From: Halarcobacter mediterraneus
GTDB lineage: Bacteria > Campylobacterota > Campylobacteria > Campylobacterales > Arcobacteraceae
Direction: 5' to 3'
DNA length: 64,000 nt
NCBI RefSeq assembly: GCF_004116625.1
Contig: NZ_NXIE01000001.1
Location: forward strand, 248,001-312,000
Numbering within the stretch: position 1 is the stretch's first letter; each line of letters starts with the position of its first letter. The notes under the pieces are model-generated. The model was given only the letters and a program-made list of their open reading frames with translations. It searched no databases and had not been told where the DNA came from. The translations under genes and the position numbers were made by a program. This document shows, piece after piece, positions 13,790 through 27,961 of the stretch.

Positions 13790-14574
13790 TTATAGATTCA
13801 CATTGTCATTTAGACAACAAACAATTTTATGACGATATTGATGAGGTTATATGTCGTGCCTTAGACCATGGAGTAAAAGGTTTCTTAATCCCTGGTGCTG
13901 ACCCTGATGATCTTCCTAAAGCTATGCAATTAGCAGAAAAATATAAAGAAGTATTTTTTTCTGCTGGTGTTCATCCTTATGATATTAAAGCTTATGATAA
14001 AAAAATATTACAAGAATATATTTCTCATCCTAAGTGTATTGCAGTAGGAGAGTGTGGTTTAGATTATTTTAGATTACCTGAAGATGAACAAGAAAAGAAA
14101 GAAGAAGTTCAATTACAAAAAGAAATTTTTATAAAACAAATAGAGTTTGCAAAAGAAGTAAAAAAGCCTTTAATAGTACATGTTCGTGAAGCTTCTAATG
14201 ATTCTAGAACTATATTAGAAAACTATGGAGCAAAAGAGGTTGGTGGTGTTTTACATTGCTTTAACGCAAGTGAACATTTATTACCTTTATCTGAACATAA
14301 TTTCTATTTTGGAATAGGTGGTGTTTTAACTTTTAAAAATGCTAGAAAATTAGTTGAAGTTTTACCTAAAATTCCTAGAGATAAAATTATTTTAGAAACA
14401 GATTGCCCTTATTTAACTCCTCATCCCCATAGAGGAAAAAGAAATGAACCTTTTTACACTACTTTTGTAGCTCAAAAAGTTTCTGAACTTTTAAATTTAG
14501 AACTTAGCGAGGTTGAGAAGCTTACCGTGGATAATACTAAAAATTTATTTAAGCAGTTTTCTACAATTATTTAG
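13789..14574 (+). CDS. tatD: TatD family metal-dependent DNase, apparently starting at AUU
   Basis: TatD-type hydrolases are TIM-barrel metal enzymes with 3'-5' exonuclease activity. The frame encodes the N-terminal metal motif H-C-H directly after I-I-D-S, then GECGLDYF, PLIVHVREA, GVLHCFN and ETDCPYLTPHP, all expected. Between an in-frame TGA at 13768 and the HxH motif there is no ATG, GTG or TTG; the first ATG (13924) would delete the HxH motif. The candidate start is ATT at 13789 (M-I-D-S-H-C-H), sharing its A with the upstream stop TAA, or ATA at 13786, with AGAGG 8-11 bases before. With ATT the length is 261 residues, normal for the family. Confidence 0.85.
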   Translation: MIDSHCHLDNKQFYDDIDEVICRALDHGVKGFLIPGADPDDLPKAMQLAEKYKEVFFSAGVHPYDIKAYDKKILQEYISHPKCIAVGECGLDYFRLPEDEQEKKEEVQLQKEIFIKQIEFAKEVKKPLIVHVREASNDSRTILENYGAKEVGGVLHCFNASEHLLPLSEHNFYFGIGGVLTFKNARKLVEVLPKIPRDKIILETDCPYLTPHPHRGKRNEPFYTTFVAQKVSELLNLELSEVEKLTVDNTKNLFKQFSTII

Positions 14575-14611
14575 ATAAAATATTACCTATTTCACAAAAA
14601 TAGGATAGTAT

Positions 14612-16015
14612 TTGAGAAAACTTGCTTTATTATTTGCCCTTTCATTTTACTCGTACGCTTCGTTAATTGGTTCTAGTTACTCACAAAGAGATTTAAGTAT
14701 TTTAGAAAATTTAGATATTAACCCTTCATTTATTACAGACTATAAACTTCAAAAAGTTTATGAACAATATCAAAGTAAATATAATTCGAATAACTATATT
14801 GAAAAGTTAAATGAGGCTTCTTTATTTGTACCTAAAGTAAAAGATATTCTTAGACAAGAAGGAATACCTGATGTATTTATATATATGGCAATGGCAGAAT
14901 CTAACTTTACAATTGATGCAAAATCAAGAGTGAGAGCAACAGGACTTTGGCAATTTATGAGTGCTACAGGAAGAAGATATGGTTTAGAAAATAATTTATA
15001 TGTTGATGAAAGAATGGACTTAATTAAATCAACAAGAGCTGCTGCAAAATATTTAAATAGATTACATACATTATTTGGGAAATGGTACTTAGCTGCAATA
15101 GCTTATAACTGTGGTGAAGGTAGAGTTATAGAAGCAATTACAAGAGCTACAATAGATTTATATGTTGAAAAAAATCCTAAAATGAAAAATAATGAAAAGA
15201 TTAAAGAATATAGAAAGATAATAAGAGCTTATCAAGAAAGAAGAGTTAGATTTAGAGAACTTAGAAAAGTTTATAATAGAGTTAAGAAATGGGGAATAGA
15301 ACCAGATATTAATGATTTATTAAAAGTTCAAACAGTTGTAAGTAGACAATATATTCCAAGTGAAAGTAGAAGATATATTAGAAAAATTATCTCTTTAGCA
15401 ATGATGAAATCTCAAAGTTTTATAAGACATGATGAAAATTCGCACTTACTTAATATGGGAATTTCAACAACGGTAGCTACTGTTCCTGTTAAAGGTGGAC
15501 TTCATTTAAGAAATATTGCCCAATCAATTGGAATGACTTATGATGAGTTGTTAGGTTTAAATAAGCATATTAAACAATCAATAATTCCTCCTAATGAAGA
15601 GTTATATGAGATTAATATTCCATATAGTAGATTAAGTAGATTCAATGAGAATAAAGATACTATAAAAGATACTCAATATCTAGTACATATAGTAAAAAGA
15701 GGGGATACTTTATATGATCTTTCAAGAAAATATAATATACCTTATAAGATTATAAAAGACTATAATAAATTAAAAACAAATCTTTTGTCATTGAAACAAA
15801 AAATAATTCTTCCTATGCCTAAAAGTATGTACAATAAAATCAAACTTTCAAGTATTAAGAAAAAGGTAAAACAAATTAAAAAATACACTGTTAAAAGTGG
15901 TGACTCTTTATATTCGATTGCAAAAAAATATAAAATTAAAATTGATAAATTAAAAAAAGATAATAATTTAAAAACTTCACTTTTAAGAATAGGAGATAAG
16001 ATTGTTATTCGATAA
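14612..16015 (+). CDS. mltD: Membrane-bound lytic murein transglycosylase with two LysM domains (MltD type)
   Basis: The enzyme cleaves peptidoglycan glycan strands, forming 1,6-anhydro ends, in the periplasm. A signal peptide ([15 protein letters not shown]) is followed by a family-1 SLT domain with catalytic E96 in MAMAESNF and the GLWQFM motif, and then two LysM peptidoglycan-binding repeats (about 345-388 and 424-467; [14 protein letters not shown] and [14 protein letters not shown]). No lipobox is evident. The start is TTG at 14612 with TAGGATAG upstream. It overlaps rlpA by 14 bases, so two cell-wall lytic enzymes are coupled. Confidence 0.9.
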
Positions 16016-19519: not shown

Positions 19520-19970
19520 TTTTGTTAAACCTGATGTAAGTCATATAAAATCAATGCAAGAACTTGTAAAAGAAGAAGTAGAGAATGGAAATATTCTTTT
19601 AAGAACAGAAGATGAAATGGCTAATACTATTAGGTCTTATACTTTGGTTGAAGTAGATAGTAAGATAGCTGGATTTACTGCTTTGCATATTCATTCAGCA
19701 AGGTTAGCAGAAGTAAGAAGCTTGGTCGTATCTAAAAACTACAGGGGACTTAAACTTGGAAAAAAATTAGTAGAGGCCTGTATTACTGAAGCTAAAAAGC
19801 TAGGCTTGGAACAAATTTTATCATTAACATATGAAAAAGGCTTTTTTGAAAGTTGTGGTTTTCATGAAATTGCAAAAGAGGATATTCCTGAACATAAAAT
19901 TTGGGCTGATTGTATTAGATGTAAGCATTTCCCTATTTGCGAAGAAATAGCGATGGTATATGACTTATGA
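19509..19970 (+). CDS. GNAT N-acetyltransferase, candidate short N-acetylglutamate synthase
   Basis: A single GNAT domain fills the 153 residues: the acetyl-CoA pyrophosphate loop is VSKNYRGLKLGKKLVEAC, followed by YEKGFFESCGFHEI. The C-terminus (DCIRCKHFPICEEIAMVYDL) has three cysteines and resembles the short ArgA-like acetyltransferases of Campylobacterota, which are thought to make N-acetylglutamate for arginine synthesis. That function is inference from resemblance, not proven. Start is TTG inside engB; it overlaps the following kinase gene by 4 bases. Confidence 0.75.
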   Translation: MEINFVKPDVSHIKSMQELVKEEVENGNILLRTEDEMANTIRSYTLVEVDSKIAGFTALHIHSARLAEVRSLVVSKNYRGLKLGKKLVEACITEAKKLGLEQILSLTYEKGFFESCGFHEIAKEDIPEHKIWADCIRCKHFPICEEIAMVYDL

Positions 19971-22090
19971 AAAAAACTCTGCTAATAATATTAACTTTTC
20001 CTTTTATATTATTAGCAGAAACTAATTTTTCTTTTAAAACTAATTTAATTAAACTTACTAAAGAAGAAAAACTTTTCTTAATTGAAAAAAATATTGATTG
20101 TGTTGTTAGCAAAAATTGGCCTCCTTTTATTTTTGAAGATAATAACAAACTAGTTGGAATTTCAAAAGACTTTTGGGATTTGATCAAAAATAAAACTTTA
20201 ATTAGTTCTTCATGTCGTGATGTTGGTACCTTTCACGAACTTTTAACTTTAATACAGAATAAAAAAGCAGATATTAGTTTATCTTCTGCAGTAAGTGAAG
20301 AAACTCTTGATTTTGCCTTATTTTCTAAACCTTATATTTCTTATCCTCTTGCAATTGCTACAACTATGGATAAACAATATATTTCAAATACTTCTTTACT
20401 TAATAATAAAAAAATTGCTGTTGGTAAAAATTATAGTTCTTATCAAATTTTAAAAGCAAAGTACCCTAAAATTGAGTTTGTTGAAGTTGAAAATAATATA
20501 GAAGCTTTAAATCTTCTTGCTAGAGGGGATGTTTATGCTGTTGTAGATATTTTGCCTGTTTTATCTTTAATTATTTCAGAATATGGTTTTAAAAATATAA
20601 AGATCAGTGGAACAACAGAGTTTAATTTTGATGTTAGATTTATGGTTAGAAATGATTATGAAGAACTAGTTTCAATTATAAATAAGGCAATTGATTCTAT
20701 TACGAAAGAAGAGTTAAATCAAATCAAAAATAAATGGCTCTCCGTGCGATTAGAAAGTGTTGTTGATTATTCTAGATTTTGGGAAATAGGATTTATTATC
20801 TTTTTAGTATTAATTATTTTATTTTATAGACAATACATTCTTAATAAACATAATAAAAAATTACAAGAAGCTAATGAAGAAATAGAAAAGAAAACCATTG
20901 AATTGGAAAAAAAGACTAAGCAATTAGCAAAACAAAAAGAGTTGTTTGAAAAAATTTATAATGAATCAACTGATGGCATTTTTTTAGTAGATTTAAAACA
21001 AAATAGAATTATTGATTGTAATGACTCTGCTTTAAAAATATTAAAATATACTTTTAAAGAAGAGTTTATTCAACTAAAATTAGAAGATTTTTTCCCTTTT
21101 AAACAAGCAAATGGAATATCTTCAATTTTTAGAATATATAAAATGATTGATATAGCAATAGAAAAAGGTTCAAACTCTTTTGAGTTTATTTTTAAAAATA
21201 AAAAAGCCCAAAATATTTGGTTAGAAGTTGTATTAACAACTATTAATTTAGATGATAGTAATTTAATGCATGTTGTTTTAAGAGATATTGATAAAAGAAA
21301 AGAGATGGAAGAGGAACTGAATATCCTTACTTTTAATTTAGAAGGAAAAGTAAAACAAGAAGTAAAAAAGAATGAGGAAAAAACAAAACAATTGTTACAG
21401 CAAAGTAGATTAGCCCAAATGGGAGAAATGATTTCTATGATTGCCCATCAATGGAGACAACCTTTAACTGCAATATCTGCTACAACTAATAATTTACTTC
21501 TTAGAATGATGATAAAAGATAGACCAAAAGATGAAGATTTAGAAAAAGAGATATCTTTGATTTCTGATTATTCTCAATATCTTTCTAATACAATAGATGA
21601 TTTTAGGAACTTTTTTAAAAGTGAAAAAGAGAAAATTGATATAACTTTAGAAACTATCGTAAACAATTCAATTTCAATTATTAAAAATTCATTGGAATCA
21701 AATAGTATTAAATTGTCTATAGACTACTCTTGTAATGAAACAGTAAATGTTTTTGCATCAGAAGTAAATCAAGTAATTTTGAATTTAATTAAAAATGCAG
21801 AAGATGCTATTTTAGAAAGTAATTTAGAAGAAGGAGAAATAAAAGTATCAACTTTTTGTGAAGAAGCATTTTGTTATATTACTATAGAAGATAATGCAAA
21901 GGGAATTCCTGAAAAGATTATAGATAAAATCTTTGATCCTTATTTCTCAACTAAAACTTCAAAAGATGGTACAGGTTTAGGTTTGTATATGAGTAAAATT
22001 ATTATAAAAGATCATTGTGGAGGAGAGTTAATAGCATCAAATAGTAAAAATGGAGCTATTTTTACAATAAAAATACCTAAAAGTTTATAA
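19967..22090 (+). CDS. Hybrid-type sensor histidine kinase with periplasmic solute-binding and PAS domains
   Basis: The order is: signal/anchor helix (1-18), periplasmic family-3 solute-binding domain (about 45-265; GISKDFWDLIKNK, IAVGKNYSSYQIL), transmembrane helix (about 272-292), lysine/glutamate coiled coil (293-330), PAS (about 330-445), and a kinase core. H494 in IAHQWRQPL is the phospho-acceptor, and N, G1 and G2 boxes follow (NLIKNAEDA, DNAKGI, GTGLGLYMSKII). The N-terminal domain probably senses an amino acid-like ligand directly or via a partner. There is no receiver domain and no adjacent regulator gene, so it is an orphan kinase. Confidence 0.9.
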   Translation: MKKTLLIILTFPFILLAETNFSFKTNLIKLTKEEKLFLIEKNIDCVVSKNWPPFIFEDNNKLVGISKDFWDLIKNKTLISSSCRDVGTFHELLTLIQNKKADISLSSAVSEETLDFALFSKPYISYPLAIATTMDKQYISNTSLLNNKKIAVGKNYSSYQILKAKYPKIEFVEVENNIEALNLLARGDVYAVVDILPVLSLIISEYGFKNIKISGTTEFNFDVRFMVRNDYEELVSIINKAIDSITKEELNQIKNKWLSVRLESVVDYSRFWEIGFIIFLVLIILFYRQYILNKHNKKLQEANEEIEKKTIELEKKTKQLAKQKELFEKIYNESTDGIFLVDLKQNRIIDCNDSALKILKYTFKEEFIQLKLEDFFPFKQANGISSIFRIYKMIDIAIEKGSNSFEFIFKNKKAQNIWLEVVLTTINLDDSNLMHVVLRDIDKRKEMEEELNILTFNLEGKVKQEVKKNEEKTKQLLQQSRLAQMGEMISMIAHQWRQPLTAISATTNNLLLRMMIKDRPKDEDLEKEISLISDYSQYLSNTIDDFRNFFKSEKEKIDITLETIVNNSISIIKNSLESNSIKLSIDYSCNETVNVFASEVNQVILNLIKNAEDAILESNLEEGEIKVSTFCEEAFCYITIEDNAKGIPEKIIDKIFDPYFSTKTSKDGTGLGLYMSKIIIKDHCGGELIASNSKNGAIFTIKIPKSL

Positions 22091-22093
22091 GAA

Positions 22094-22588
22094 TTAATTA
22101 CTCCACCACATTCTTAAATATAATCCTAAAGTTGAAGTATAGCCTACTTCACTAAAATTAAGATTTTGGTTTTTATCATAGATAAAAGTTGTAGGAAAAG
22201 CTTTTATATTAAATTGTTTTGTTAAAAAACCATCTTCATCATTTACTACTTTAAAAGTAAGATTGTTTTTTTCTAAGTATTTTTTTATTTCTTTTTCATT
22301 TCCTGATTGTGTGGCAATAGTTATTACTTGATAGTTTTTTGAAACTTTTTCAATATTACTTGCTTCTAATTCGCAAATAGGGCACCATGTTGCCCAAAAA
22401 TGAATTAAGAGAGGTTTTTCCTTATCTATAAGATATTTCTCATTATTTAGAAGTTTAAATTCTTGTATATTTAACTTTTCTTTATTTAAATCAAGAGACT
22501 TATAATAGCTCACAATATTTAATACAATAACAAAAATTACTGTATATTTAATAGTTTCTTTTATATATTTTTTTATTTTACTATTCAT
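22094..22588 (-). CDS. Membrane-anchored thioredoxin-like (TlpA/ResA family) protein
   Basis: One N-terminal membrane helix (YTVIFVIVLNIVSYY, about 13-30) anchors a periplasmic thioredoxin fold. The redox motif is W-C-P-I-C in LIHFWATWCPICELEA, and the cis-proline segment is AFPTTFIYD. It is the reductase/cytochrome-maturation type rather than a DsbA type. It converges on the kinase gene with only 3 bases between their ends. It lies downstream of the RND operon, separated by a hairpin, so it may have its own promoter. Confidence 0.85.
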   Translation of the reverse strand: MNSKIKKYIKETIKYTVIFVIVLNIVSYYKSLDLNKEKLNIQEFKLLNNEKYLIDKEKPLLIHFWATWCPICELEASNIEKVSKNYQVITIATQSGNEKEIKKYLEKNNLTFKVVNDEDGFLTKQFNIKAFPTTFIYDKNQNLNFSEVGYTSTLGLYLRMWWSN

Positions 22589-22666: not shown

Positions 22667-24322
22667 TTATAATATTTTATATATATGGTTTTTTATTATA
22701 ACTGGTACAAAAAACATTGATACTACATATGAAATTAATGTTCCACCAATTAATGCAACCCCAAGTCCTCCAAAAACTGCATCAGTTGCAAGTAATGAAG
22801 ATGCGAATACCATTGTTAAAACAGTTAGAATAATAGGTTTAGATCTGGTTGCTGTTGCTTTTGCAATGGCTTGATTTATAGTTAGTCCTTCATTTTGAAT
22901 TAATTGTTTTGTAAAATCAATAATTAAAGTAGAATTTCTTGAATTAATTCCAATAAGTCCAATAAAACCAATCAAAGAAGTTGCTGTTAGGTAAAAGGTG
23001 TCATTAGTAATAGTATCCATAATAATATGTGCAAAAATTACTCCAATAATTGAAATAAAACTAGCTAAAACTATTCCTCCTGAAATAGCGAAGCTTTTAT
23101 AGTAAACAACCATTAAAAAGAAAATTAAAACTAAAGCTATAATAAATGCTCCCCCTAAGTCTATAAAAGTATCTATTGTTACTTTTAATTCTCCATCCCA
23201 GATAAGTTTAAATTTTTCATTAGTTTGCTTGTTTATAAACTCTAAATTTAACATATCACTTTTTATCACTTTATAGTCTTTATCAAAATTATTTAAAAAA
23301 TCATCTCTTGCATCAAGTAAAGGATATATTTGACTATCTTTGTTTGTTTCAGCTATTACATTTATAAATGGAGTTAAATTTTTAGAAGTTAGCGTTGCTT
23401 CTGTTTTTGTTTTTGTGATTTTAACAAGTTCATTTACTGGTATTAAATTTCCATATTTATTTACAAGTTTTAGTTTTGAAAGTTCATTTAAAATGGCTTC
23501 TTTATTATTTGTATCAAATATTCTATTATCATCAAGCCTTAAGAAAATAGGTATTTGACTTTGTTTATTACTTTCATTAACAGCTGCAACACTTAAGCCT
23601 TGGTAAGCTAAATATATAGTATTTTTAACTTGTTCTAAAGAAATACCACTTTCAATAATCTTATTGTTGTCTAAACTTAATTCGAATTTATCAAGTTCAT
23701 CATCTGCCATAACATCTACATCTACCAAAGTTTTTTGCTTTTCTAAAACTTTTGCTACTTTTTTTGAAAAATCTCTTCTGCTGTCAAAAGAGTTTCCTCC
23801 ATAAACTTCTGCAACAATTGAGGCTAAAACAGGAGGACCAGCTGGTAATTCTATTAATTTGATATTGGCTTCATAGTTAGAACATTTTTCTTGAAGTTCT
23901 TCTCTAATTGAACTTACAAAGTTATAACTAGTAATATCTCTATCTTTAAATTTTTTTATATTTACAACAATTTCAGCTTGAGATTGTTTATCCTTTAAAG
24001 AACTTTGTTTTACTAAAGCTGCAAAGTCTAAAGGTTGTCCTTGCCCTAGAAAAACTGAAATATCTGTAACAATATCTTTGGTAATCAAAATTTTTGAAAT
24101 ACAAGAAGTTACTTCTTTTGTTTGATTTAATGAAGCTTTATCATGTAAATCTACATAAACTGAAAAAGTATCAGAATCCTTACTTGGTAACATTTTAGCT
24201 TTTGTAATCTCTATAGGAAAAGTAAGTACACTAAGTAAAAATAAAATAAGTGTAATTACATAAACCATCAAGGATTTAAAAGGATTTTCTAAAATTGTAT
24301 AAATAAAATTTTCAAGTTTCAT
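22667..24322 (-). CDS. RND efflux permease, C-terminal half (separate ORF)
   Basis: This 551-residue protein equals the second half of an AcrB/HAE-type permease: TM7 (VYVITLILFLLSVLTF), the periplasmic pore/docking region, and TM8-12 with GGIVLASFISIIGVI, TSLIGFIGLIGINSRNS and GALIGGTLISYV-like ends. It lies in the same reading frame as the N-terminal half, separated only by TAA and three codons. It has its own AAGGAT ribosome site 6 bases before its ATG. The two halves together (about 1060 residues) match one full permease. They may assemble post-translationally, or this may be a nonsense-mutated gene. Confidence 0.82.
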   Translation of the reverse strand: MKLENFIYTILENPFKSLMVYVITLILFLLSVLTFPIEITKAKMLPSKDSDTFSVYVDLHDKASLNQTKEVTSCISKILITKDIVTDISVFLGQGQPLDFAALVKQSSLKDKQSQAEIVVNIKKFKDRDITSYNFVSSIREELQEKCSNYEANIKLIELPAGPPVLASIVAEVYGGNSFDSRRDFSKKVAKVLEKQKTLVDVDVMADDELDKFELSLDNNKIIESGISLEQVKNTIYLAYQGLSVAAVNESNKQSQIPIFLRLDDNRIFDTNNKEAILNELSKLKLVNKYGNLIPVNELVKITKTKTEATLTSKNLTPFINVIAETNKDSQIYPLLDARDDFLNNFDKDYKVIKSDMLNLEFINKQTNEKFKLIWDGELKVTIDTFIDLGGAFIIALVLIFFLMVVYYKSFAISGGIVLASFISIIGVIFAHIIMDTITNDTFYLTATSLIGFIGLIGINSRNSTLIIDFTKQLIQNEGLTINQAIAKATATRSKPIILTVLTMVFASSLLATDAVFGGLGVALIGGTLISYVVSMFFVPVIIKNHIYKIL

Positions 24323-24331
24323 ATAAATCCT

Positions 24332-25864
24332 TTATAAAAATTTCTTAACTAAATAAGGAGTAAACATATATGCAACAATTAATGAAACAATAAGTGCAAT
24401 TGGTACAAATACAGGAAGAGGGTTCATAAATTGTCCCATCATACCTCCTACAAAAAACATTGGAATAAAAGTCATAATAATAGCTATTGTTGCAATATTT
24501 GTTGCATTTCCAATTTCATTTGTTGCAGTTATGGATAAGGTTTTGATATCAGTAGTTTTTTTATCCTCTTTTCTATGCCTAACTATATTTTCAATTACAA
24601 TAATTGCTGCATCAACAAGCATACCTAAACTTACAATTAAAGCAAAAAGAGTGATTCTATTTATAGTTTCATCTAAAATAAAACCAATAAAAAGTGTCAT
24701 TGATAAAATCATTGGAACCAATAATGAAACAATCATAGCTTCTTTAAAACCTAAAGTAAATATTAGTAAAATAGCAATAATTATAATAGAAATTAAAAGA
24801 TTCTGAACTAAAGAGTTCACAGCATTATTTGCTGTATATCCATCATCTCTTGTAATAACATATTTTATATTTTTATTTTCTAGTTTATTTTCTATACTTT
24901 TGATATATTCAAATATCTTTTCATTTATTATTACAGAGTTTGAACCTTTTAATTTTGATATTTCTAAAGTAAGTTGAGAAATACCCTCTTTGTGTTCCTT
25001 CGTATATAAAATAGCTTCTTTTTTATTTTGGATATCAAAGCCTTTAGTAACTTTTGCTACATCTTTTAAATAAATAGGGGTATTAAAATTATATGAAATA
25101 ATAATATTTTCTAAATCTTCTTTTGATTCTATAGCATTTTTTATACTTAATACAGTTAGGTTTTTTTCTTTATTATCACTTTTTATATTAGGAGTAATCT
25201 GTGATAAAGCTTTTACTCTTTGGGCAATTGCCCCTAAAGATAAATTATAGCTAGCTAATTTATTTGCATTGAATTCAACATTATATTGATCTTTTTTTTC
25301 TCCTTTAAAATCAACTAAAGCTACATTTTCTATTTTGTTTATTTCATGGGAAATCTTACTTATTTCATTATATAATTGAGTCTGAGAGATTTTATTATTA
25401 TCTACATAAAAAGCAATAGTTGCAATGGGAATATCTGTATCTATATCCATTGTTTTGACAATAGGTTCTAAGGCTCCTTTTGGCATCATATCTATATTCC
25501 TCATCACTTGGTCATATAGTTTTAAATTAGAATCTTTTTTATCTTCCCCTATATAATACTGTACTTGAACTATTCCTACTGATTCTTTTGCATAAGAATA
25601 AATATATTCAACACCTTTTATTTCTCTTATTTTTTTTTCCAAAGGTTCTATGATAACTTTTTGTATTTCACTTGGTTTTGCACCAGGAAGAGGAACTATT
25701 ACAGCTCCTCCACTTACTTTTATTTGAGGATTTTCTTCCCTTGGCATAAATTCTAATGAAATAAGTCCTAAAGATAAAATAAAAATACTCAAAATAAAAG
25801 TTAAGGGATGATCTATAAAGGTTTTGGCTAACTTCCCTGCAATATTATAGTTAATATCATTCAT
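24332..25864 (-). CDS. RND efflux permease, N-terminal half (separate ORF)
   Basis: This 510-residue protein equals the first half of a HAE-type RND permease: TM1 (FILSIFILSLGLISLEFMP), periplasmic domain with GAVIVPLPGAKPSEI, and TM2-TM6. The proton-relay helix 4 has the expected aspartates in ALIVSLGMLVDAAIIVIENI. It ends at TAA after MFTPYLVKKFL, just past TM6, at the junction between the two internal repeats. Downstream, in the same frame, is the C-terminal half. It overlaps the adaptor gene by 8 bases, giving the operon order TolC-adaptor-permease N-permease C. Confidence 0.85.
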   Translation of the reverse strand: MNDINYNIAGKLAKTFIDHPLTFILSIFILSLGLISLEFMPREENPQIKVSGGAVIVPLPGAKPSEIQKVIIEPLEKKIREIKGVEYIYSYAKESVGIVQVQYYIGEDKKDSNLKLYDQVMRNIDMMPKGALEPIVKTMDIDTDIPIATIAFYVDNNKISQTQLYNEISKISHEINKIENVALVDFKGEKKDQYNVEFNANKLASYNLSLGAIAQRVKALSQITPNIKSDNKEKNLTVLSIKNAIESKEDLENIIISYNFNTPIYLKDVAKVTKGFDIQNKKEAILYTKEHKEGISQLTLEISKLKGSNSVIINEKIFEYIKSIENKLENKNIKYVITRDDGYTANNAVNSLVQNLLISIIIIAILLIFTLGFKEAMIVSLLVPMILSMTLFIGFILDETINRITLFALIVSLGMLVDAAIIVIENIVRHRKEDKKTTDIKTLSITATNEIGNATNIATIAIIMTFIPMFFVGGMMGQFMNPLPVFVPIALIVSLIVAYMFTPYLVKKFL

Positions 25865-26615
25865 TATTTTGCCCTAAAATAACTTTACTATACATACCAG
25901 GATAGATATTTTTATCTTTTTTATCAAACTCTATTTTTAGTATAAAAGAGTGAGTCATATTTACAGTATTTGGAATAATTGATTTTATCTTTCCTTTTGT
26001 TTTATAGTTAATAGAATCAATTATTACTATAACTTCATCATTGATTTTAACTTTTGATAGCTGACTTTCTGAAATAGAAGTTTTTATTTTTAATGAGTTT
26101 AAATCTGTTAAAATAAATGCAGGAGAAGAGGGCATAGCTAATTCACCTTCTTTTATACTCTTTTTTATAATTAAACCATCATTTGGTGCTTTAATTTTTA
26201 AATATTCATATTGAGTATTTATTTCTTTAACTTTTGCTTGAGCTATTTTTAGCATTTTTTCTGTATTTTTTAGTTTTAGTTCCAAAAGTTCTAAATCATA
26301 TTTTGCAACTAAATCTTTTTTATATAATCGTTTATATCTTTCATAGTTTAATTTTATATTTTCTAAATTGTTCCTTTGTATTTCATAACTTGATAAGGCT
26401 TCATTTTTTAGACTATCAATATTAGAAGAGTCAATTATATATAAGATCTCTCCTTTTTTAACAAAGTCTCCTTCTGAAACATTGACTTCTTTTATATATC
26501 CCATAAATTTACTTGAAATGATTTTCTCATTGTCTGAAATAACTGTTCCTGTTAGTTCTTGTGCATATAAGTTTAAACTAGTTATAAAAGCTAGAATCGT
26601 TAAAAAATATTTCAT
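25857..26615 (-). CDS. RND efflux periplasmic adaptor subunit (membrane fusion protein)
   Basis: A signal peptide (MKYFLTILAFITSLNLYA) precedes a first lipoyl half (GYIKEVNVSEGDFVKKGEIL), an alpha-hairpin coiled coil (about 75-130), a second lipoyl half (LKIKAPNDGLIIKKSIKEGE) and a beta-barrel domain. At 252 residues it lacks most of the membrane-proximal domain of typical 350-400-residue adaptors. It overlaps the TolC gene by 4 bases and the permease by 8, so the three pump parts are coupled. Confidence 0.88.
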   Translation of the reverse strand: MKYFLTILAFITSLNLYAQELTGTVISDNEKIISSKFMGYIKEVNVSEGDFVKKGEILYIIDSSNIDSLKNEALSSYEIQRNNLENIKLNYERYKRLYKKDLVAKYDLELLELKLKNTEKMLKIAQAKVKEINTQYEYLKIKAPNDGLIIKKSIKEGELAMPSSPAFILTDLNSLKIKTSISESQLSKVKINDEVIVIIDSINYKTKGKIKSIIPNTVNMTHSFILKIEFDKKDKNIYPGMYSKVILGQNNE

Positions 26616-27961
26616 TTACTCTCTCCGTTTATATTATTTCCAATTGCTAAATTAAGTTTTCCTTGAGCTAAAGAGTGCTCATATTTAGCCAAAATAAAAG
26701 CTGCTTCATTTTCTCTATATATAGCTTCTTGTTTTAAAAGTTCTGACATTGCAATTAATTGATTTTTATACATTTGTTTTGATTGTTCTAGAACTTCATA
26801 TGCTAAAACCTTTGCTTCTTTTTTTTCTTTTAAAAGTTTTTCTTTTGCTTGAAGATTTAAAGTGGCTTTTTTCAGTTCTAGTTTAATAGCATCTTCTAGT
26901 TCTTGTTTTTGTAAGAGAGATTTTTGATATTCAAGTTTACTTTTTTGAAATTCATATTCTCTTGCTGGGTCAAATAGTGGAAACTTTATTCCAATCATAG
27001 CTAAGTAGTAGTCTTTCTCACTTGAAAAGTTTACTCTATCATCATTTACACCATACTCTAAGTGAGTATAAATATTTGGATAATATGCTGCTTTATTAAG
27101 AGCGATATTTTTTTTATTAATTTGATTAGCAAGGGTAATTATTTTTATGTCATCTCTATTTTTTAAAGCTTTTTCATAAGAATTAGTTGGATTAAGAGAA
27201 TTATTATATGTTTTTAATCCTTGAATATCTTCTATTTTTTCAATACTTGTTAAGAAAGATAAGTAAGCAAGAGCAAGTTCATAATTATTTTTAGCTTGAG
27301 TTAGTTTACTTTGAATATTTAAAGAGTAAACTTTGGCTTGTTTTTTATCTATTTTTGTTACAAGACCTTCCTTATAAAATTCATTTGCAGTTATTTCGAA
27401 AATATTAGTAACTTCTTTTGCTTTTTTTATAGCTTTAATATACTCTTTTGCTACAACTGCATTATTATAAGCTTTTAGAACTTCATAAGATAAATCTTTT
27501 ATATTTTTATTTAAAATAGTCTTTTCTATTTTTTTCTGTAAAGAAATCATATCTTTTTGGTTTGATAATTTAAAGCCAGTAAATAAAGGAATATTATAGG
27601 TTACTTTTGTTGTAAAATTATTTCTATTTTCAGGTTGATTTAAATCAAAGGGCTGTGTATCAATAGGTCCTCCAAACTCTGAAAATCCAAAATCTTTAAA
27701 GCTAGCTTCCCTTGAAGATAGTTTATAATTAAAAACATAACCTGCATGATTAGTTCTACTAGCTTCATGTATTAAATTTACATTACCATAAGAAAAAGAT
27801 TTAATCTTTTTTAAATCAGAATTTTTTTGTTCAATATTTATTTTTTGTTGTTTTATTTTTTTACTATTTTCTAAAGTAGCTGCAAGAGCTTTTTCAAAAT
27901 TTATAGTTTGGGCATTTGCTATTGAAAATATTAATAATATATATAAAAAAAACTTATACAT
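26612..27961 (-). CDS. TolC-family outer-membrane efflux protein
   Basis: The outer-membrane channel of the RND pump encoded downstream. A signal peptide (FFLYILLIFSIANAQ) is followed by two OEP repeats rich in long amphipathic helices (about 30-230 and 240-445), e.g. EKALAATLENSKKIKQQKIN and the late helix ALNKAAYYPNIY. The 449-residue length is normal. First gene of the operon; TAGGAGAG precedes the ATG and a TATAAT-like box lies at about 27990-28000 on the minus strand. Confidence 0.9.
   Translation of the reverse strand: MYKFFLYILLIFSIANAQTINFEKALAATLENSKKIKQQKINIEQKNSDLKKIKSFSYGNVNLIHEASRTNHAGYVFNYKLSSREASFKDFGFSEFGGPIDTQPFDLNQPENRNNFTTKVTYNIPLFTGFKLSNQKDMISLQKKIEKTILNKNIKDLSYEVLKAYNNAVVAKEYIKAIKKAKEVTNIFEITANEFYKEGLVTKIDKKQAKVYSLNIQSKLTQAKNNYELALAYLSFLTSIEKIEDIQGLKTYNNSLNPTNSYEKALKNRDDIKIITLANQINKKNIALNKAAYYPNIYTHLEYGVNDDRVNFSSEKDYYLAMIGIKFPLFDPAREYEFQKSKLEYQKSLLQKQELEDAIKLELKKATLNLQAKEKLLKEKKEAKVLAYEVLEQSKQMYKNQLIAMSELLKQEAIYRENEAAFILAKYEHSLAQGKLNLAIGNNINGESK

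Follow-up and report, generated by a model that had tools for sequence, protein, structure and literature searches.

An operon in the window, by which we mean the whole 64,000-nucleotide stretch of Halarcobacter mediterraneus DNA analyzed here, very probably encodes a tripartite RND efflux pump whose permease gene underwent a single split long ago, giving a protomer of two chains. In the usual view, an AcrB-type RND pump is one long chain that arose by an old internal duplication. Here the two repeats are encoded by neighboring genes, and sequence comparison across genomes indicates that this arrangement is a fixed, ancient, order-wide gene fission and not a recent mutation. A sequence-only reading of the same DNA had offered natural fission giving a two-chain pump as one of three options, and this option is supported by the order-wide occurrence of the split, its restriction to one clade, and purifying selection on both halves.

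A tripartite efflux operon with its permease in two genes

The operon encodes a TolC-type outer-membrane factor (OMF), a periplasmic adaptor (MFP), and the N and C halves of an RND permease (Table 1). Because the two halves cover successive parts of the Pfam ACR_tran family, the break lies between the two repeats. Coordinates and sequence both agree with the junction as first read: the N half stops at a TAA and the ATG of the C half follows four codons on in the same frame, the minus strand reading TAA-AGG-ATT-TAT-ATG. The Shine-Dalgarno (SD) sequence of the C half lies 5 nt before its ATG and has two bases in common with the N-half stop codon. Six other matches to the C half occur in the same genome (E ≤ 0.001), all of them full-length frames of 1025-1043 aa, so the split is special to this permease gene.

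Table 1. Features of the efflux operon, in window coordinates
Feature	Position	Strand	Evidence
TolC-type outer-membrane factor gene, 449 aa, operon gene 1	26612..27961	-	Pfam OEP PF02321, E 1.2e-43
Periplasmic adaptor (MFP) gene, 252 aa	25857..26615	-	TIGR01730 RND_mfp 134.5 bits (above the curated cut-off of 94.9 bits); HlyD_D23
RND permease N half, 510 aa, TM1-TM6 and first periplasmic repeat	24332..25864	-	Pfam ACR_tran (PF00873) 2-489, E 2.8e-75
RND permease C half, 551 aa, I-alpha helix, TM7-TM12 and second periplasmic repeat	22667..24322	-	Pfam ACR_tran (PF00873) 518-1016, E 1.6e-42
Junction: TAA 24334-24332, three codons, ATG 24322-24320	24320..24334	-	Sequence
Shine-Dalgarno AAAGGA of the C half	24328..24333	-	Sequence

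OMF and MFP genes upstream of the permease are usual in split and fused loci alike, with exceptions that include L041, L069, and L078. At L078 the best adaptor match is downstream rather than upstream. At L046-L049 and L076 the OMF gene directly precedes the N half, with no intervening adaptor match.

Two further genes lie beside the operon in the window. A thioredoxin-like, membrane-anchored protein with a CPIC motif is encoded 78 bp downstream of the C half in the same direction (22094-22588, minus strand), and a similar gene is found near the relative L023. Convergent to the operon is an apparent sensor histidine kinase with a solute-binding-like N-terminal part, as judged from its translation (19967-22090, plus strand); no response regulator adjoins it among the listed ORFs.

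Fold, proton relay, and a probable two-chain protomer

We modeled the two halves, read through the stop as one continuous chain, from a 62-row alignment; such a model speaks to the fold of the joined chain, and the association of separate chains is outside its reach. The mean pLDDT is 86.7 and the pTM 0.80. Among the stretches listed, pLDDT falls below 50 only at residues 233-236 and at the junction, residues 511-516. Residue 509 is the last of the TM6 helix, and the next helix, at 518-526, is taken as the equivalent of the I-alpha helix. In this model the cut thus falls in a flexible cytoplasmic linker after TM6 and before the I-alpha helix, which bears out the earlier placement of the split just after TM6, between the pseudo-symmetric halves. 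The fold is that of the HAE-type permeases (PF00873) AcrB, MexB, BpeB, and CmeB (Z 45-48, rmsd 2.7-4.2), although identity to solved HAE-type permeases is about 17-20%. The best match is BpeB (Z 48.2, rmsd 2.8, 985 residues), with AcrB at a Z of about 47.

The proton relay of AcrB, which we take to comprise D407, D408, K940, R971, and T978, was compared across the split forms. Among rows with the residue, the D407 counterpart is identical in 74/74, R971 in 73/73, and T978 in 73/73. The D408 site is Ala in 67 of the 74 split rows, and the K940 site is Arg in all 73; Arg at the latter site is also found in fused relatives (15/15 and 77/77 rows) and is thus general in the wider family. The window permease follows this pattern, keeping D407, R971, and T978 with D408 replaced by Ala and K940 by Arg, so that three of five relay residues are identical. 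Together, the D408 and K940 changes may mean that the pump runs differently. The TM4 Asp is on the N half, and the Arg, Arg, and Thr are on the C half. Since the relay residues are divided over both chains, both would have to be present for the relay to work.

We regard a two-chain protomer as the most likely product, with three of each chain predicted per pump. Both halves would be made in coupled fashion from one mRNA and would insert separately, each with six TM helices. The N and C chains would then pair into one AcrB-like protomer with relay residues from both, and three such pairs would form a trimer working with the adaptor and the TolC partner. By inference from sequence, the split pump is predicted to be trimeric and to carry out proton-driven drug export.

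It is tempting to suppose that the fission is used and not merely tolerated, as a means of controlled or exchangeable assembly in an obligate three-plus-three heterohexamer with mixed protomers. We consider this improbable. Several genomes carry more than one split copy, i.e., G062 (L040, L041, L042), G118 (L077, L078), and G109 (L081, L082), and here hybrid N/C pairings could form. Fused and split permeases occur together in G107 (L184, L186) and G126 (L185, L187), where such hybrid pairings could likewise arise. Because of this coexistence the two forms are to some extent paralogous, and tasks could have been shared out between them.

That the two halves instead form separate homo-oligomers with separate tasks, without pairing, seems very unlikely. 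Each half does contain a complete 6-TM repeat, and PMC8277102 describes SecD and SecF as RND halves, with six TM helices each, that can be separate chains. However, the two genes are neighbors and probably coupled, each chain supplies part of the proton relay, and the read-through model is one normal RND protomer.

Slightly less likely still is a pump in decay, of which the halves would be remnants with no function left in one or both. The loss of the second TM4 Asp in most split rows would fit decay, as would one broken remnant in the relative L054, which has one internal TGA. However, the dN/dS values between the window and six relatives are 0.10-0.19 for the N half and 0.11-0.21 for the C half, indicating that both halves are under purifying selection. 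In addition, internal stops are absent from 90/91 matches in the family, the D407, R971, and T978 equivalents are conserved, and the operon with OMF and MFP is kept in most loci.

Junction architecture and the start of the second gene

The split loci differ in how the two genes meet. Among 73 distinct loci, an overlap of 1-14 nt is found at 41 junctions, a gap of 0-2 nt at 7, and a gap of 8-12 nt at 25. The second gene is out of frame with the first in 54 loci and in frame in 19, a share not above the one third expected by chance. An SD 4-mer precedes the C-half start in 68/73 distinct loci (69/74 rows; L056, at the same place as L023, is outside the 73 but inside the 74-row junction, relay, and dN/dS sets), as compared with 154/2528 internal ATGs of the same genes. 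The earlier proposal of a ribosome site for the second half thus holds for the window, where AAAGGA precedes the ATG, and for most other split loci. Given these SD sites and the close or overlapping starts, translational coupling of the two halves is likely.

In each of the 25 loci whose gap is 8-12 nt long, GG or AGG follows immediately on the stop codon, which is thereby included in the ribosome site. The single in-frame stop that caught attention in the window is indeed present, but the emphasis placed on it was misleading: the stop belongs to the ribosome-binding site of the second gene, and its in-frame position is, by comparison with the other junctions, a coincidence. In L024 and L026, ATG and TGA overlap; comparison of either with L008 suggests that the TAA of a TAAGG already present came into frame through a small shift before it, which also trimmed the tail of the N half.

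The agreement of frames in the window and 18 other distinct loci could be read as programmed readthrough (or frameshifting) that still gives a full-length chain at useful levels. We give this as little credence as decay. In 54 of the 73 loci the two genes are in different frames, 41 junctions overlap, three different stop codons are used, and the second gene is usually preceded by a ribosome site of its own at a suitable distance. Readthrough, raised in the sequence-only reading, is refuted as a conserved mode, since the majority of orthologous junctions overlap or change frame.

Some junctions have an unusual composition. In split loci beyond the close relatives of the window (e.g., L073, L043, and L039), the cytoplasmic junction segments are rich in His, as are the fused linkers of L057-L071. 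His makes up 15.5% of the junction in 40 split rows, as compared with 1.7% over the whole proteins, and at least three His are found in 21 of these 40; none of the 34 rows close to the window shows this richness. Metal binding or sensing is a possible role for such segments.

Distribution and origin of the split

The earlier reading had called for a comparison of this junction in related genomes, which we carried out at increasing phylogenetic distance. In the genus, 16/16 genomes have the C half as an open frame of its own, with 77-81% identity in the 15 relatives. In the family it is separate in 91/91 matches, from 88 of 104 genomes, in frames of at most 616 aa, a few of which are shortened by contig ends. 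In a draw from the order, 316/398 genomes match the C half at E 1e-12, a threshold at which ordinary full-length RND proteins are included; among the order matches listed, every frame is 551-663 aa long. A further 80 genomes of the order gave 90 matches, 88 in frames of 445-676 aa and 2 in frames of 1116-1126 aa. Two groups of the order, f10 and f13, gave weak matches only. A draw at the level of the phylum contained genomes of this same order alone. The N half adjoins the C half on the same strand in 74/75 loci with a split-type C half; the exception is L054, a broken contig fragment with one internal TGA.

Phylogenetic trees place the split forms together. In a tree of 129 concatenated rows, made after 41 of 170 rows were removed as near-copies and with four E. 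coli K-12 permeases as the outgroup, the 61 split rows group in a single clade (support 100) and the label changes once. The neighbors of this clade are single-chain Campylobacterota, followed by single-chain proteins of other phyla. An IQ-TREE analysis under a mixture model, with 70 chosen rows, also recovers the split rows (37) as one clade with support 100, and so does a tree with six further rows (135 in all, 65 of them split). Trees of the N part alone and of the C part alone likewise put the split forms in one clade. In these trees, most of the N half is missing from L040 and most of the C half from L042, and L041 and L069 are long branches whose exact positions are unsure; L100 and L155 were left out, as they are apparently the same places as L071 and L069.

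As the split forms are one clade nested among single-chain homologues, one change of label suffices, and with single-chain outgroups a fission is a simpler assumption than a fusion. Among the loci examined, none proved to be a re-fused member of the split clade. Judged from these trees, the fission looks like a single event.

The weakest alternative, a sequencing error or a recent nonsense mutation whose effect is offset by reinitiation at the next ATG, would account for a single in-frame stop with an ATG four codons on but can be set aside: the split is found in every genus and family relative recovered and across the order in one clade, which refutes a recent mutation, and sequencing error is excluded by a conserved split in which the second gene is often in another frame.

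Single-chain relatives and known systems

Single-chain forms were found within the order and well beyond it. With the N half as the query, six genomes of family f15 have one open frame of 1156-1181 aa. Among 40 genomes, most with intermediate scores, 29 of 42 matches are in frames of 1012-1238 aa; of the rest, 12 are split or fragmentary, and one, of 632 aa, is a single-chain gene cut by a contig end. L068, with an open frame of 1076 aa, is fused; it was treated as such in the trees and is outside the split counts. A scan of named bacterial genomes with nine single-chain queries gave 80 loci in many phyla, 79 of them with one frame of at least 1020 aa and the remaining one running off its contig; the scan favors long matches and hence single-chain forms, so split forms elsewhere are compatible with this result.

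The nearest relatives in the trees are the single-chain Campylobacterota sister clade (L057-L071) and relatives in other phyla (L101-L179). Most loci of the sister clade have an operon with OMF and MFP, as in the window, but their permease is one frame of 1012-1238 aa with a continuous cytoplasmic linker. The fused permeases of L057, L059-L061, L063, and L064, at their predicted starts, have an apparent charged, coiled-coil-like N-terminal extension of some tens of residues before TM1.

The split pump resembles AcrB, MexB, BpeB, and CmeB in its 12 TM helices in two repeats, its TM4 Asp, and its partner adaptor and TolC protein. In contrast to these, it has two chains in place of one, with Ala for D408 and Arg for K940; CusA has Ala at the D408 site, as do most split rows. 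In terms of the HAE type, the window has ACR_tran over both repeats, an AcrB-like fold in the read-through model, and an operon with an adaptor and a TolC-type factor, and it has two polypeptides instead of a single one of ~1,000 residues. The NCBIfam models RND_permease_1 and RND_permease_2 score the N half at no more than 238.6 bits and the C half at no more than 112.4 bits, below a cut-off of 1250 that applies to the whole protein and that a half chain cannot be expected to reach.

Two other known arrangements were considered and rejected as identities for these genes. The N half matches a SecD/SecF model at E 2e-4 (19.2 bits against a cut-off of 723), as compared with 1e-70 for RND permease models, while the C half has no SecDF model match; no such Pfam match was found either. 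MdtBC/MuxBC is a pump needing two permease gene products, and a review (PMC8277102) calls hetero-oligomeric RND pumps such as MdtBC rare. MdtBC/MuxBC has two full-length homologous permeases, whereas the genes in the window are complementary halves of one, which rules out an MdtBC-type pump.

The closest precedent is artificial. In the engineered split MexB of Eda, Yoneyama, and Nakae (2003, Biochemistry 42:7238), the protein was cut at the N-terminal end of I-alpha and was reportedly functional, according to PMC4359379. The natural cut is in the same place. However, the split MexB was one engineered protein, whereas the split described here is natural, ancient, and order-wide. The literature searched, which covered few subscription papers, yielded no account of an HAE-type permease that is split in nature. 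A whole order has kept this RND permease as two chains, cut at a site that engineering found harmless, which offers a natural setting in which to examine whether folding, energy coupling, and assembly depend on a covalent link between the repeats.

The split also carries a warning for genome annotation. In the public records of Sulfurovum mangrovi and Sulfuricurvum kujiense, the halves are two genes, each named "efflux RND transporter permease subunit." Because both halves are named alike, automated surveys may count them as truncated or duplicated pumps. In Sulfurovum mangrovi (L181), a cation:proton antiporter near the split pump, at 14528-15653, is also annotated as two overlapping genes.
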